Shown one piece after another: positions 22,548 through 55,209 of a stretch of DNA of 62,926 nt. The stretch comes from Pirellulales bacterium. Its GTDB lineage: Bacteria > Planctomycetota > Planctomycetia > Pirellulales > JAEUIK01. The stretch spans positions 1 through 62,926 of the forward strand of contig JAIESQ010000065.1 of the NCBI GenBank assembly GCA_019745975.1. Reading direction: 5' to 3'. The notes under the pieces were generated by a model. That model was not told where the DNA came from, searched no databases, and saw only the letters and a list, made by a program, of their open reading frames with translations. A program made the position numbers and the translations under genes. How positions within the stretch are numbered: position 1 is the stretch's first letter; each line of letters starts with the position of its first letter.

Positions 22548-23028
22548 GCGTCTCGCCCCGTGCGTGTTCTTCGAGCGCGGCGTCGCGCAGCTCGATCAAC
22601 TTGGAATGATTGAAGAACTCGCTGTCGGCCATGGCGATGTCGCGCGCCTCGCGCAAACGCCGTCGAAATTCCTCGGCATGGGCAACGCCAAGCTCCTGAC
22701 TGTCGAACTCACTCAACAGCTTCTCGTACGTCGCGGCGGCTGCCAACCACTCGGCAAACATCGCATCGAGCTCTTGATGAGCACGCGCGTCGTACGACTC
22801 TGGCTTGGCGGCAATCGCGGCGCGCCACTGTTCGTCCAATTGGATCAGCATGTCGTAAACGACGACGTGTGCCGACAGCAGCGTTCCCAACCAGCGGCCA
22901 CGCGCTTCACGGTCGGACGGGCCAGTCGCCGTGTCGCTGGCGGCCTCGGCGCAGAGACTGACCCAGCGGTGAACGAAATCGGCGTTGGGAAGCGGAAGTG
23001 ATTCAGTAGTCGCCACGTACGGTCTCAA
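22528..23028 (-). CDS. Unknown protein overlapping the RelE-like gene (candidate antitoxin or partner)
   Basis: 166 aa, mostly helical, no signal peptide. No classical antitoxin DNA-binding fold is evident. Residues about 15-125 form an all-alpha region (FVHRWVSLCAEAASD, LSAHVVVYDMLIQLDEQW, LDAMFAEWLAAAATYEKLLSEF). The C-terminal segment ARDIAMADSEFFNHSKLIELRDAALEEH is the most conserved-looking part and resembles a short toxin-binding helix. It precedes and overlaps the RelE-like gene by 20 bp, the order typical of antitoxin then toxin. It is long for an antitoxin, so the role is an inference from position only. Confidence 0.55.
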   Translation of the reverse strand: MRPYVATTESLPLPNADFVHRWVSLCAEAASDTATGPSDREARGRWLGTLLSAHVVVYDMLIQLDEQWRAAIAAKPESYDARAHQELDAMFAEWLAAAATYEKLLSEFDSQELGVAHAEEFRRRLREARDIAMADSEFFNHSKLIELRDAALEEHARGETLEFGAT

Positions 23029-23064
23029 TCGGCAATTCGAAATCCGTGACCCGAACCAACAGGA

Positions 23065-23385
23065 CTATGCAACAAGTATAACAGCCTCCGTGTCCGAAAT
23101 CCCCGAGTGCGAGATTTGCTCTGCAGTTGTCACTTGCTCCGTCGTTTCGCCGCATACGACGAGAAACACTATCGAATTAATTAGTGCAAGAATTGGCCAC
23201 GGGTGTGTTCCTGCTAACGGACGACGGGGCAGCGTCAAGCCAATCAGGATCAACGCGGTCAACATCGTTGCGGAGAACAACAGCCCGAGTCGACCTATCA
23301 ATTGCAGTCGGTCTTTCTTAACCGGCCGACGCTTGGGGCGCGAAGGCTCCAACTGTTCCGGCGGCTCATACGGATTGCCTTCCAT
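23065..23385 (-). CDS. Small two-helix membrane protein with NPYEPP start
   Basis: 106 aa from the ATG at 23385 (MEGNPYEPPEQ); an in-frame start at 23424 adds 13 residues. The N-terminal NPYEPP motif followed by a basic linker (RPKRRPVKKDR) is a recurrent beginning of small planctomycete membrane proteins. Two hydrophobic helices follow: LIGRLGLLFSATMLTALILIGL and WPILALINSIVFLVVCG. The topology suggests a small inner-membrane protein of unknown function. It is divergent from the secretin gene. Confidence 0.6.
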   Translation of the reverse strand: MEGNPYEPPEQLEPSRPKRRPVKKDRLQLIGRLGLLFSATMLTALILIGLTLPRRPLAGTHPWPILALINSIVFLVVCGETTEQVTTAEQISHSGISDTEAVILVA

Positions 23386-23680
23386 CTCCGCCAGCATACT
23401 GTCGCTAGCAAACAAAATACGCACCCAGTCGCCGGAATAACTTCAGACCGACCCACAGGCCGCCGATACTGCTGCCACGATACGGGCGCATCCCGCAGGC
23501 TGGGGCTGCGCCGTTGTCGGGTTAGCAGGGGGGAAACCATGCTAGCCGAATTGAATAAGTGCGGGCGTTTGTTGCACTTCTGAATTCGACGGCGCTGGCG
23601 GCCAATCGAGCCGCCCGGCTGCTGGCGCTACTATGCGCGCTAGTCAACGCAGTTTCAAAACCTGAATCGTACCGACGTCG

Positions 23681-23752
23681 GGTGCCACTGCTAGCTCGCC
23701 TAGCAGTGCCTCCTCGCACCTGGCACTGCTGGACAAGCCAGCAGTGGCACAC
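23681..23752. repeat. Tandem pair of CACTGCTGG-family hairpins
   Basis: Two palindromic units stand side by side: CACTGCTA-7 nt-TAGCAGTG at about 23685-23708 and CACTGCTGG-ACAAG-CCAGCAGTG at about 23723-23748. The family recurs at 31457-31488 and, more diverged, at 20208-20231. The pair lies just upstream of the probable TTG start of the secretin at 23763 and is inside the longer reading frame that opens at 23559. Confidence 0.8.
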
Positions 23753-23762
23753 GGCACTGGTT

Positions 23763-37528: not shown

Positions 37529-37966
37529 CTATTCAGCATCCGCGTCGTCTGTTTCTTCGTCGTCTTCATCCTCGTCGTCGTCCCAATCGTCTTCATCCTC
37601 GTCGTCTTCTTCCCACTCTTCTTCCTCTTCTTCCTCGTCGTCCTCTTCCTCGTCTTCCTCTTCGTCCTCGACTTCTTCCCACTCGGCGTCTTCGAAGTCG
37701 TCTTCCTCGTCCAGATCGTCGTCCTCGTCGTCGTCCAGATCATCATCGTCGTCGTCATCATCGTCGTCGTCATCGTCGTCGTCGTCGTCGTCGAAGTCGT
37801 CGTCGTCGTCGTCAGGGCCGGCCACGGGATGGAGGGTCGACGGACGAGCGCTCGCCACCGCGGCCAGCCTGCTCGCAGCCGCCCCCAGGCGCTCGGTCAA
37901 CTCCGGGCTCTCCAGTTCCGCGCACGATGAAATCTTCACGTCAAACTCCTCTACCAAGCGAGACAT
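37529..37966 (-). CDS. Extremely acidic low-complexity protein (poly-Asp/Glu tail)
   Basis: 145 aa. The first 50 residues are ordinary (SSCAELESPELTERLGAAASRLAAVASA). Of the last 94 residues, 82 are Asp or Glu, including one run of 18 Asp; four aromatic residues, mainly Trp, are spaced through the tail. An internal GTG at 37939 has a good Shine-Dalgarno sequence (GAGGAG, 6 nt away), so the true start may be there. No family is assigned; acidic tails of this kind occur in histone-chaperone-like or cation-binding proteins. It lies between hemA (convergent) and scpB (same strand, 53 bp). Confidence 0.6.
   Translation of the reverse strand: MSRLVEEFDVKISSCAELESPELTERLGAAASRLAAVASARPSTLHPVAGPDDDDDDFDDDDDDDDDDDDDDDDDDLDDDEDDDLDEEDDFEDAEWEEVEDEEEDEEEDDEEEEEEEWEEDDEDEDDWDDDEDEDDEETDDADAE
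37718..37815. repeat. GTC/GAC trinucleotide microsatellite in the acidic gene
   Basis: On the plus strand this stretch is almost continuous TCG/TCGTCA triplets (GAC/GAT on the coding strand), with uninterrupted runs of five to six identical triplets. Being in frame, slippage would change only the length of the Asp run, not the reading frame. Confidence 0.8.
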
Positions 37967-52085: not shown

Positions 52086-53408
52086 TTACGCGAACATTGC
52101 GGTCAGCTTCTGCAGCTGATGGCGGTAACTGAAATGTTCGACTTCCAGCAGGTGGCGCGACGAGTTCAGGTACTTGATCTTACCCGTGTCGACATGCCCG
52201 GCCGACTTGATCCGTCGAAAGCGCTCGGCCAGGTCGGGCCGCCGCCCCTGCGCCGCCACGAACCGCGCGATCAGCCGCGCTTGCCATTCGACCAGCCCAA
52301 ACTGCCCGCTGTCGGGCTGAATCATCCCGACCACGAACACGTTGTCGCGCCGCGGATGAAACACGTTGAGATAAAAATCGGGGCGCCCATCTTTCCAGGC
52401 CAGGTGCTCGCGATCGATGAACGGAAAGCTGATCTTGTAGCCCGTCGCGTACACGATCACGTCGATCGCTTCCTCGCTGCCGTCGACGAAGCGCACACGA
52501 TCGCCGCATAGGCGCTCGACGTCGGGCTTCGCCGTGATGTCGCCGTGCCCCACGTAGTAGAGCATCTGCGAGTTGACGATCGGGTGCGTTTCGAACAAGC
52601 GATGATCGGGCTTGCGCAGTCCGTAGTCTTGCGGCCAGCCCAAGATCATCTTGGCCAACAGCGACGCGGTCGCCCGCCGCAACCAAAGTGGCGCGCGCCA
52701 GCGCAGCATGGTCTCGCCGAGCACGTCGGCCGGCATGCCCATGAAGTACTTCGGCATATAGTGGTAGCCGCGCCGCACGCTGTGAAACGTGTTCGCGGCA
52801 TTTTGGGCCGACTCGACCGCGATGTCGCAGCCTGAGTTGCCCGCCCCCACGATCAGCACGCGGCGCCCGCGCAACACGTCGGGGGTCTTGTAATGCGCCG
52901 CATGCAGCGAAGTGCCGGAAAACTCGCCGGGGAAGTCGGGATACTTCGGGTCCCAGTTATGTCCGTTGCCGATCACCACGCCGGCATAGCGCCGCCGCTC
53001 GCCGTCGGCCAGTTGTACCTCCCATAAGTCTCCCACTGGCTCGATGCGTTCGATCGTCGTCCGAAACTCGATCCGCGGATAGAGATCGAAGTGCCGCGCG
53101 TACGCACGCAGGTAGTCGCACACCTGTCGGTGGTTGGGGTAGTCGGGCAGGTTGTCTGGCATGGGAAAATCTTTGAACTCGGTCATGCGCTTCGACGAAA
53201 TCAGATGCGTCGAGGCGTAAACCGTGCTCCCGCCCGTGCCGAAGTACCAGTTCCCGCCGACTTCGTCCTCGCGCTCCAACACGTCAAAGGCAATGCCCTG
53301 GTCGGCAAACTGCTTGGCCATGACCAGCCCGCTCGACCCGGCGCCGAGGATGCAATAACGATCCCAACGGTCGATTGCCTGGTGGCGGGCGGTATCAGAG
53401 GTGGTCAT
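52086..53408 (-). CDS. Flavin-containing monooxygenase (FMO / Baeyer-Villiger type)
   Basis: 440 aa. FAD-binding Rossmann motif YCILGAGSSGLVMAKQFADQG near the N-terminus, the FMO-identifying sequence FSGTSLHAAHYK (FxGxxxHxxxY), and the NADPH site VLIVGAGNSGCDIAVESA. Further family signs are VGGNWYFG, YPNHRQVCDYLRAYARHF and DVIVYATGYKISFPF. The enzyme should oxygenate a soft nucleophile or ketone using NADPH and O2; the substrate is not readable. It is divergent from the alpha-CTD-like gene across a long spacer. Confidence 0.94.
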   Translation of the reverse strand: MTTSDTARHQAIDRWDRYCILGAGSSGLVMAKQFADQGIAFDVLEREDEVGGNWYFGTGGSTVYASTHLISSKRMTEFKDFPMPDNLPDYPNHRQVCDYLRAYARHFDLYPRIEFRTTIERIEPVGDLWEVQLADGERRRYAGVVIGNGHNWDPKYPDFPGEFSGTSLHAAHYKTPDVLRGRRVLIVGAGNSGCDIAVESAQNAANTFHSVRRGYHYMPKYFMGMPADVLGETMLRWRAPLWLRRATASLLAKMILGWPQDYGLRKPDHRLFETHPIVNSQMLYYVGHGDITAKPDVERLCGDRVRFVDGSEEAIDVIVYATGYKISFPFIDREHLAWKDGRPDFYLNVFHPRRDNVFVVGMIQPDSGQFGLVEWQARLIARFVAAQGRRPDLAERFRRIKSAGHVDTGKIKYLNSSRHLLEVEHFSYRHQLQKLTAMFA

Positions 53409-54084
53409 GAGGCGAAACTCGGAATTCTGAGAAGAAAAAAGTGATCAGATCGAGTTGTCAGAATACGAGAAATGCGTAGATCGCGCGGCCAGAATCCACT
53501 AGCTGGCATCATTTTTGCTCAATTGTGCACGCTAATGGAAACTCGCTCGCCGGCGGCTGAGTATAACAGTTGCCACCCGCCTTCCCGATTTCAATAAGTC
53601 GTTTATCTCTGGACACTTCGTATTGACCATCACAGCAGGTATGGTTTAGAACCTAGCCGGCTTGGTTTTTAGATTTGTCCAATGAAGCGGCAGCTTTTGC
53701 AAGGTTCGCGCAGCGGATTCGGGCAGCGACGGCCAAAAAAAGTTGCTCACTTCGCAGAAAAAATAGCTACACAAAGCGAAAACTTTTGCCTCGACCCACG
53801 TAGTAAGGAGTGCAACAGCGCGTGCCGGGTACGACAACGTTGATCCGGCCGCAGGGATCGTTTTTGGACTGCTAGGGGTAGATCTCCCACCTTTTGGCAT
53901 GCAACCACCCTTGCAATGCGTGAACCAGTCGAGCGGACCGAAGAACGGTCCGTCTGCGACAACTCCTATAGCCCGCCACGACGGAGTTCGTAACTCCGGA
54001 CGTACGAGCTGGGAGCGATCGGCTGCCAAGGTGCCGGGTCCGTCGGCCGTAATGAATGCGGCCGCTGATTCTGGGAGGACAGCA
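53409..54084. other. Long AT-richer leader between FMO and the alpha-CTD-like gene
   Basis: 676 bp without a supported gene, the largest gap in the window. It is AT-richer than average between about 53480 and 53790 and includes homopolymer runs (AAAAAAA near 53736, AAAAAA near 53759, TTTTT near 53514). A Shine-Dalgarno GGGAGGA at 54073-54079 sits 5 nt before the downstream ATG. A regulatory 5' leader or small RNA is possible, but no known riboswitch was recognised. Confidence 0.45.
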
Positions 54085-55209
54085 ATGCACTTGAATCGAA
54101 CGTCGTCCATCGCTGAGTTTCGTCTTAATTCGCGGTTCGGTGAGCTGCGCGACCAACTAAGCAACGAGCGCTTCGCCTGCCGCTTGGAGAAGCCGTTGGC
54201 GTATTGGGCTTTGCCCAAGGATCGCCGCTTGCCGCTGGCCTTTATGGGTCGCACGGTCCACGACCTGCTGTCGACCCCCTTCGAGGACCTGCTGGCGACG
54301 CCGGGGGTCGGCGAAAAGAAAATCCAGTCGCTGCTCGATCTCTTGGATCGCGTGGCCGTCGATCCCTGCCCTGGCGACGACGAACTGCCCGCTACAAGCC
54401 CCATTCAGCCGCCCGTCCCAGCAACCAGCACGACGACAGACGGGGACATTTTCAACGCAGTCGCGGTGTCCGAAGTCATGTGGAGCCTCTGGCGCCAGGC
54501 CGTCGAGCGCTACGGCCTTGGCCACGAATCGCTCGGCCGTTTCGCGCCGTCGCTCGAGCGCTTGCCGCGCGTGCTGTGGCATACACCGCTGTCGACCTAT
54601 TCGCACCTCACGTTGGCCGAGATCCGTGGCTTGAAAACCCACGGCGAAAAGCGGGTCGCGGCCGTGCTCGAGGTCTTTCATGAGCTCTACCAGGTCCTGT
54701 CCCGGCTAGGGCCACCCGGGCATCTCTCGGTGCGCATCGTTCCCCGCGTCGCCAACGCCATCGAAGAATGGCTGCTGGCCACCCTCGAGCGCCCCGAGCT
54801 ACCCAGCTCCAGCGAGTTGTTCGACCACGTCGTGCTGCCGCTCGTCGACCAGGTCCGCATCGACGCTGGCGCGCCGATCGCCCATCTCGTCGAAGAGCGT
54901 TTGGGCATCGTCGGCGATGGCTCGAGCGTGCGGCAAACCGCCAGCAATCTCGGGCTCACCCGTGCCCGTATTTATCAGTTGCTAGCCGACGTCGGTGAGA
55001 TCGTATCGGTCCGTTGGCCCGAGGGTCAGTACCTCGTAGGCCACCTGGTCGAGCGTCTCCACCAGCAGCACGAAGACGACCCGATGCATGGCCGATTGTT
55101 GGCGGCGATGGAGCTCTTCTTTCCCGGCCATCGCGGTATCACTACGGGGGCCGAGGGATTAGCCGACGATGACGGCGCCGAAAGCGCCACGCGTCGCCGC
55201 GCCGGTTAA
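54085..55209 (+). CDS. Orphan protein with alpha-CTD-like HhH and sigma-4-like HTH modules
   Basis: 374 aa from the ATG at 54085, supported by GGGAGGA at 54073; the frame back to 53899 is not. Residues about 54-90 (MGRTVHDLLSTPFEDLLATPGVGEKKIQSLLDLLDRV) match the helix-hairpin-helix fold of the RNA polymerase alpha C-terminal domain. A second such unit is at about 168-205 (YSHLTLAEIRGLKTHGEKRVAAVLEVFHELYQVL). Residues about 268-310 (LVEERLGIVGDGSSVRQTASNLGLTRARIYQLLADVGEIVSVRWPEG) resemble sigma-factor region 4. No signal peptide. It could bind DNA or RNA polymerase. I do not know a named family. The Pro/Thr linker at 95-125 separates the modules. Confidence 0.75.
   Translation: MHLNRTSSIAEFRLNSRFGELRDQLSNERFACRLEKPLAYWALPKDRRLPLAFMGRTVHDLLSTPFEDLLATPGVGEKKIQSLLDLLDRVAVDPCPGDDELPATSPIQPPVPATSTTTDGDIFNAVAVSEVMWSLWRQAVERYGLGHESLGRFAPSLERLPRVLWHTPLSTYSHLTLAEIRGLKTHGEKRVAAVLEVFHELYQVLSRLGPPGHLSVRIVPRVANAIEEWLLATLERPELPSSSELFDHVVLPLVDQVRIDAGAPIAHLVEERLGIVGDGSSVRQTASNLGLTRARIYQLLADVGEIVSVRWPEGQYLVGHLVERLHQQHEDDPMHGRLLAAMELFFPGHRGITTGAEGLADDDGAESATRRRAG

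Follow-up and report, generated by a model that had tools for sequence, protein, structure and literature searches.

A 374-residue protein encoded in the analysed window, a stretch of 62,926 nucleotides from a Pirellulales bacterium, joins a fold of the RNA polymerase alpha C-terminal domain (alpha-CTD), a second helix-hairpin-helix (HhH)-like unit and a sigma region 4 (sigma4) fold with an extra helix on one chain. It is read here, with a probability of about 0.45, as a DNA-binding transcription regulator of Pirellulales that copies the upstream promoter face of the holoenzyme and is not a sigma factor. The gene is conserved, its folds come from models and structure comparison, and its recognition helix is near-invariant; the protein would bind DNA, at an altered target, cap itself and exert a regulatory effect. 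The probability is no higher because every step from DNA binding onward is inferred. Coordinates are collected in Table 1.

Table 1. Features of the 374-aa gene and its surroundings, in window coordinates.
Feature	Position	Strand	Basis or remark
Flavin-binding monooxygenase-like gene (PF00743), divergent neighbour	52086..53408	-	Pfam; translated upstream comparison
Upstream non-coding region, 676 nt	53409..54084	+	between the divergent monooxygenase gene and the 374-aa gene
Ribosome-binding-site-like GGGAGGA	54073..54079	+	5 nt before ATG 54085
Alpha-CTD/HhH/sigma4 protein gene, 374 aa	54085..55209 (stop included)	+	open reading frame, homologue starts, dN/dS
Alpha-CTD fold (helix-hairpin-helix), residues 28-92	54166..54360	+	model, structure comparison, profile comparison
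Low-confidence variable linker, residues 96-123	54370..54453	+	pLDDT <50 at 96-119
Second HhH-like unit, residues 130-206	54472..54702	+	model; weak assignment
Sigma region 4 fold, residues 235-325	54787..55059	+	VIA, profile comparison, distant relatives' sequence matches
Helix-turn-helix, recognition helix T-R-A-R-V/I-Y-Q-L-L, residues 282-300	54928..54984	+	residue counts
Extra helix after sigma4, residues 333-353	55081..55143	+	chimera alignments, model, residue counts

The frame, its ATG start and the 676-nt gap before it were all confirmed by the frame list, the sequence and the homologue alignment. Among 42 homologues, the start codon closest to where the alignment begins is ATG in 38, at or adjacent to the aligned position, and GTG or TTG in four (L019, which lies at a contig edge, L031, L048 and L049). 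Purine-rich stretches similar to GGGAGGA precede many of these starts. A 436-aa frame from the in-frame ATG at 53899 was rejected, since the homologues align from 54085. The protein is retained at full length in relatives and dN/dS is 0.03-0.29 in the seven homologue pairs computed, which indicates purifying selection; judged by these comparisons, its conservation is more than chance.

By sequence alone the window protein falls below every curated cut-off. Its genome yields 49 Sigma70_r4 matches at E 0.01, and the protein is not one of them; a profile search of solved structures returned two rows, both unrelated. An AlphaFold model built with 19 aligned sequences reached a mean pLDDT of 79.6 and a pTM of 0.58. 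A Foldseek search of the model against the PDB gave no match with E <0.001, and its candidate list was dominated by sigma factors; after re-alignment with VIA, the 50 rows listed comprised 44 native sigma chains, five sigma4-beta-flap-tip chimeras and one unrelated chain. A profile of residues 213-352 compared with 18 sigma4 sequences of the same genome gave an E value of 5e-5 (probability 67%, 27 columns). Four longer relatives scored 27.3, 28.1, 33.2 and 24.0 bits against Pfam Sigma70_r4, so that three of the four reach the cut-off of 24.1, and the best matches of two of them among solved structures are sigma4 chains (E 0.00046 and 2.9e-6). The sigma4 fold is thus supported by structure comparison and, via distant relatives, by sequence. 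Neither a sigma region 2 nor an alpha N-terminal domain was matched in Pfam, NCBIfam and PHROGs scans of the protein (for region 2, at E values up to 10), and in the models the residues outside sigma4 are occupied by the two HhH-type units and the linker. The protein is therefore read as neither a sigma factor, for want of a region 2 match, nor an alpha subunit, for want of an N-terminal domain match; rpoA itself is encoded elsewhere in the genome, in a frame of 334 aa. The unusual pairing of alpha-CTD-like and sigma4-like folds, in a protein that is neither polymerase subunit nor ordinary sigma factor, had been proposed in an initial annotation made from the DNA letters and is supported.

The C-terminal boundary of the structural match differs between the two kinds of sigma chain. 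The 44 native chains stop at model residue 318-325, while the five chimeras reach residue 346-352, with 88 of 89 (8cyf_B), 95 of 97 (8d5v_B), 94 of 96 (7kug_D), 84 of 85 (7kuf_B) and 85 of 86 (6ido_A) chimera residues aligned; their Z values, 8.9 to 7.3, are middling, and the unrelated chain 7pw8_A (Z 6.7) also aligns, over residues 219-353. As described in passages of PMC10245118, such chimeras imitate the holoenzyme contact by fusing sigma4 to the flap-tip helix, and in one chimera crystal the flap tip is swapped between neighbours. Because the extension to 346-352 came only with flap-tip chimeras, the modelled helix 333-345 seems to be placed in the core-docking groove of sigma4, where the beta-flap tip would dock. 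Residue counts in homologues show a conserved E/D-L-F-F/Y-P in the extra-helix segment. A sequence copy of the flap-tip helix was considered and dropped: the RpoB tip of the same genome, PEEKLLHAIFGRAG, shares only a loose LLxA-like pattern with helix 333-345. The suggestion that the protein contacts polymerase becomes less likely, since the extra helix seems to fill the groove by which sigma4 binds the flap.

By residue counts the recognition helix is nearly uniform in the family, with eight of nine positions identical in 40-42 of 42 homologues. T292 is invariant, R293, A294, R295, Y297, Q298 and L299 are each kept in 41 and L300 in 40, and residue 296 is V, I or L in 41. The short family carries TRARVYQ where eight longer relatives have [S/T][R/K]ER[I/V]RQ, which is also the sigma70 pattern in alignments of two long relatives with solved sigma4 chains. 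The E and second R of that pattern, replaced by A and Y in the short family, would correspond to E585 and R588 of sigma70. Because the helix was altered at two positions and then kept fixed, we infer one conserved DNA target unlike the classical -35 box. The near-invariant helix fits the proposal that the protein contacts promoters, but with two positions differing from sigma70 the classical -35 element is probably not what it reads. Two divergent family paralogues lie side by side in genome G017 (L148:2742-5108); their sigma4 recognition helices are degenerate, and neither gave a Sigma70_r4 match in a Pfam scan.

For the N-terminal half, modelled alone with a pLDDT of 80.1 and a pTM of 0.43, the two HhH units differ in how firmly they can be placed. 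The six top VIA rows for residues 28-92 are all RNA polymerase entries (Z 5.9-4.3), the four best superimposing at 2.0-3.0 A over 59-63 residues with 24-27% identity; that the matched chains are alpha subunits follows from chain length and the residue numbers 239-329. The unit also matches a profile of 48 alpha-CTD sequences from these genomes (E 0.0027). Residues 124-212 matched the same profile at E 0.13, with two unrelated controls at 0.39 and 0.11, and the best structural row for the second unit is a NusA C-terminal repeat (VIA, Z 3.3). Compared with each other by profile, the two units gave E 0.012. The whole sequence scored E 0.053 against HHH_5, below the curated cut-off, and 12.3 bits against RNA_pol_A_CTD, whose cut-off is 23.8. 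One alpha-CTD fold is therefore supported by structure comparison, whereas the second, described initially as alpha-CTD-like too, is weaker than stated: it is HhH-like in the model but not firmly an alpha-CTD, because its profile E value is no better than that of a control. The refuting outcome named in the initial annotation, unrelated folds in a structure prediction, did not arise for the first HhH or for sigma4, and the second HhH is weakly placed. Residues invariant in all 42 homologues are D46, R47, P50, G74, G76, K78 and K79 in the first unit and L150, G151, L157, T185, G187, K189 and R190 in the second. By motif they may be likened to the DNA-contacting residues R265, G296 and K298 of alpha-CTD.

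Beyond rpoA, the same genome holds further alpha-CTD genes at G000:C165:48861-49310 (L066, L067), where two alpha-CTDs end a 458-aa frame whose first part resembles TPR repeats by eye, and at G000:C185:65868-66053 (L068), where one alpha-CTD lies in a 164-aa frame. Across the 20 nearest genomes searched, the number of alpha-CTD matches per genome ranges from 1 to 6, and 4 is the commonest value.

The family is widespread within the order. For the source genome (~7 Mb) and its nearest relatives, matches were found in 43 of 57 genomes, own included, at E 0.001, and at 1e-5 in 89 of 297 genomes of the order with the single sequence and 89 of 294 with a profile, spanning 54 of 123 genera; the profile search left 205 of the 294 sampled genomes (~70%) without a match. 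Several of the genome searches scored only the best 6-10 first-look candidates per genome, so absences are soft. Most genomes have one copy, and G017 has five matches. A phylum-wide draw matched in 4 of 294 genomes, own included, all within Pirellulales, and a more permissive class-wide draw (E 0.01) in 37 of 198, with three strong matches from outside the order (G603, G634 and G647). Weak class-wide rows were dropped: those of G050 and a second G028 match (E ~0.001) look like unrelated helical proteins, and that of G625 stood at E 0.003. Relatives among named records (18 loci) are all planctomycete, most labelled Pirellulales, and include Blastopirellula marina DSM 3645. Whole-protein identity of homologues to the window protein is ~40-60%. 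A mobile origin of the gene led nowhere: the family protein has no plasmid match, and one viral contig carries a 46-residue match (L137). Literature titles and abstracts, searched with several narrowly phrased queries, returned no description of the family. The label of orphan thus needs amending, as the family is spread over the order and longer relatives occur in the class, some beside defence genes.

The upstream region, put forward initially as the largest intergenic region of the window, is by our own gene calls the second largest, after 746 nt at 23017-23762, a rank that depends on the start codon assigned to the next gene. Its length recurs in relatives. With a home-made gene caller, an upstream gene could be called in 35 of 42 loci, or 28 once near-duplicates had been removed. 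The median gap is 651.5 nt, whereas 145 other genes of these loci have a median of 263 nt (Mann-Whitney p 8e-8); the 4,400 nt recorded for L047 is an artefact. Upstream neighbours differ between loci, so the long gap belongs to the gene itself and is characteristic of the family. These findings support a long regulatory region.

The proposal of a leader RNA finds little support. Length is conserved and all 20 shuffled versions fold less well than the leader (z -3.21), but no RNA family was matched and no sequence is shared outside close relatives: Rfam gave nothing at gathering for the window or 12 related loci (two chance-level rows, E 2.5 and 8.8), and the window leader has no sequence similarity to the other 40 upstream regions. 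A hidden small gene was rejected, as translated comparison of the upstream regions revealed no shared peptide and recovered just the neighbouring genes. A shared operator was also rejected: in 33 upstream regions no word was commoner than the maximum reached after shuffling, hence no DNA site emerged, and the most enriched 8-letter words, AAGAGGCA and GAAGAGGC, look like ribosome-binding sites. Scans of the leader found no promoter (0.4 expected) and one terminator (0.8 expected), and it contains one two-copy 12-nt repeat. Four loci (L037-L040, the same genes as L011, L038, L014 and L015) share a block ~240-450 nt upstream, present in no other upstream region; the stretch L037:3679-3853 and its counterparts in L038, L039 and L040 have an invariant TGACTCCC...AGCACT.CAACGG core, and the block could be a promoter or leader element.

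Gene neighbourhoods vary. The monooxygenase-like gene is also divergent upstream in L028, L029 and L031, and elsewhere a sugar-transferase or lactamase-fold gene stands there instead. The four window neighbours scanned encode the monooxygenase, a SpoIIAA-like protein, a DUF6159 protein and a hexapeptide protein; none is sigma-like or sigma2-like, and no Pbe or Dnd genes adjoin the window gene. The SpoIIAA-like protein (PF11964; 55285-55653, minus strand) is the downstream convergent neighbour. A different convergent gene of ~330 aa follows in 7 of 19 public loci; one copy, scanned at 1e-5, had no Pfam match. Farther off in the window, a 145-aa frame (37529-37966, minus strand) carries a long aspartate run.

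Longer relatives, with open frames of 518 to 998 aa, share the core and mostly add ~400 C-terminal residues; they come from other orders of the class and from a single Pirellulales genome (G564). A search with the long C-terminal part matched in 7 of 397 genomes of the class and found nothing in the genome of the window. Counting G564, there are eight extended-form loci, of which seven are informative, G810 lying on a 4-kb contig. Homologues of PbeA, PbeC and PbeD, which belong to phosphorothioation-linked defence, lie within a few kb in four of the seven (G564, G647, G775 and G731), three of which run long form-PbeA-PbeC-PbeD along a single strand, and are absent from the stretches examined in G603, G744 and G780. 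The linked frames are 779-998 aa long, and 775 in G564 (L142/L149 in G647, L145/L150 in G564, L160 in G775, L161 in G731). DndA-like genes follow in G564, G647 and G731, with DndB-, DndC- and DndD-like genes also in G564 and G647. The Pbe and Dnd names were assigned by scanning two loci with NCBIfam and PADLOC; PbeA scored 615 and 704 bits, DndB, DndC, DndD and dnd_assoc_4 lay above their NCBIfam cut-offs, and dnd_restrict_1 and DndA lay slightly below theirs. No protein like the long form is named for these loci in section 16 of PMC10853773 or in its other passages that were searched, and the long relatives are a possible undescribed component of them. When a tree that includes 10 longer or divergent relatives is rooted at its midpoint, the 42 short forms make up one clade (support 0.936).

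How the protein would work can be set out from these parts. A regulator conserved in Pirellulales, usually in single copy, would grip DNA upstream with its alpha-CTD and second HhH, on the minor groove side, and its sigma4 helix-turn-helix would recognise one constant sequence that has departed from the classical -35 box. The C-terminal helix would fill the groove where a real sigma4 docks on the beta flap, and from this filling we propose that the protein sits on DNA by itself. There it would chiefly occupy or mark promoter sites upstream, most probably repressing transcription or competing with the holoenzyme. The protein may still work on promoters as sigma and alpha do. A more far-reaching version, which we consider unlikely, makes the chain a replica of the upstream promoter-recognition face, with the alpha-CTD, the second HhH in place of the other alpha-CTD, sigma4 and a stand-in for the beta-flap tip; it would be an order-wide promoter occluder or marker with rewritten -35 specificity, whose core is common with the DNA-recognition part of a phosphorothioation-linked defence. 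Taken as a whole, the initial observations mostly hold (gene, gap, sigma4 and one alpha-CTD), and the interpretation built on them stands in part, for the fold combination but scarcely for the leader RNA.

The intact sigma4 fold would also suit a polymerase-bound co-factor, in which sigma4 docks on the flap once the helix is displaced, as half of a split sigma or in the manner of gp33, with the HhH units in contact with alpha or with DNA upstream. Passages of PMC8103513 and PMC2988020 describe core-binding sigma4-like proteins of both the split and the stand-alone kind (SigO-RsoA and phage T4 gp33), and the weak best match of the second HhH is to a repeat of NusA, a polymerase-bound factor. 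A conserved helix that seems, in the model, to occupy the docking groove and the lack of a sigma2-like gene among the four tested neighbours nevertheless make this account rather doubtful. Another alternative is control of the divergent monooxygenase gene or of the gene itself, for example: an ordinary local regulator with no global role, its likeness to polymerase reflecting only shared fold ancestry. Long upstream regions suit local control, and the divergent monooxygenase-like gene recurs in three other loci, yet it is missing from most loci while the recognition helix stays the same, and of the alternatives this one appears the least probable.

The longer relatives raise a further alternative, that the long form serves PbeA-PbeC-PbeD/Dnd loci as their DNA-recognition or control part, and that the short form is a domesticated relative whose retained DNA-sensing core has a role outside transcription, for instance to sense or guard DNA. 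Its appeal lies in the four of seven loci where long forms adjoin PbeA, PbeC and PbeD, co-directionally in three, and in the single clade of short forms, under midpoint rooting. It is nonetheless distinctly unlikely: three of the seven loci lack the association, the window gene has no Pbe/Dnd neighbours, a search of its genome did not find the long C-terminal part, and PADLOC found nothing in the window protein. If the preferred reading of a promoter-occupying regulator is true, polymerase's promoter-reading modules have been built into a regulator with the enzyme link disabled, which would act by simple competition for promoters. The recognition helix varies so little that any single species would serve for a direct test of the DNA target. 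Through the link of the long relatives to Pbe/Dnd, a defence system in which target recognition is not settled would gain a DNA-binding component that has gone undescribed.

Among known systems, the long relatives resemble the PbeABCD or CxC-ABC-ATPase-DndE loci in adjoining PbeA-PbeC-PbeD, unlike the window gene; in passages of PMC6459918 and section 16 of PMC10853773, the published systems have a 66-aa PbeB at that place instead of this protein. The best NCBIfam row for the four long relatives tested is MzaA (NF041931), a sigma-70-like protein of the MZA anti-phage system, but the match covers the C-terminal sigma4 only, at 25-30 bits against a cut-off of 800; the window protein has no NCBIfam match. 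To RNA polymerase alpha (PF03118) the window protein is alike in the fold of residues 28-92 and the conserved hairpin G-x-K motif, and unlike it in scoring below the Pfam cut-off, in being without the alpha N-terminal domain and in being joined to sigma4. With the sigma70 family (PF04545) it shares the fold at 235-325 and a T-R-x-R-V-x-Q helix, with long relatives that reach the Pfam cut-off; the family differs in having region 2, in a helix of the TRERIRQ type, as in eight long relatives, where TRARVYQ stands here, and in a flap-docking groove that the extra helix of the window protein appears, in the model, to fill. SigO-RsoA and T4 gp33, as described in passages of PMC8103513 and PMC2988020, likewise keep a sigma4-like unit apart from sigma2. 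The SigO-RsoA split sigma has a sigma2 partner of a kind not seen among the four scanned neighbours; SigO-RsoA and gp33 bind core polymerase, whereas the window protein adds two HhH-type units and its docking groove looks occupied.
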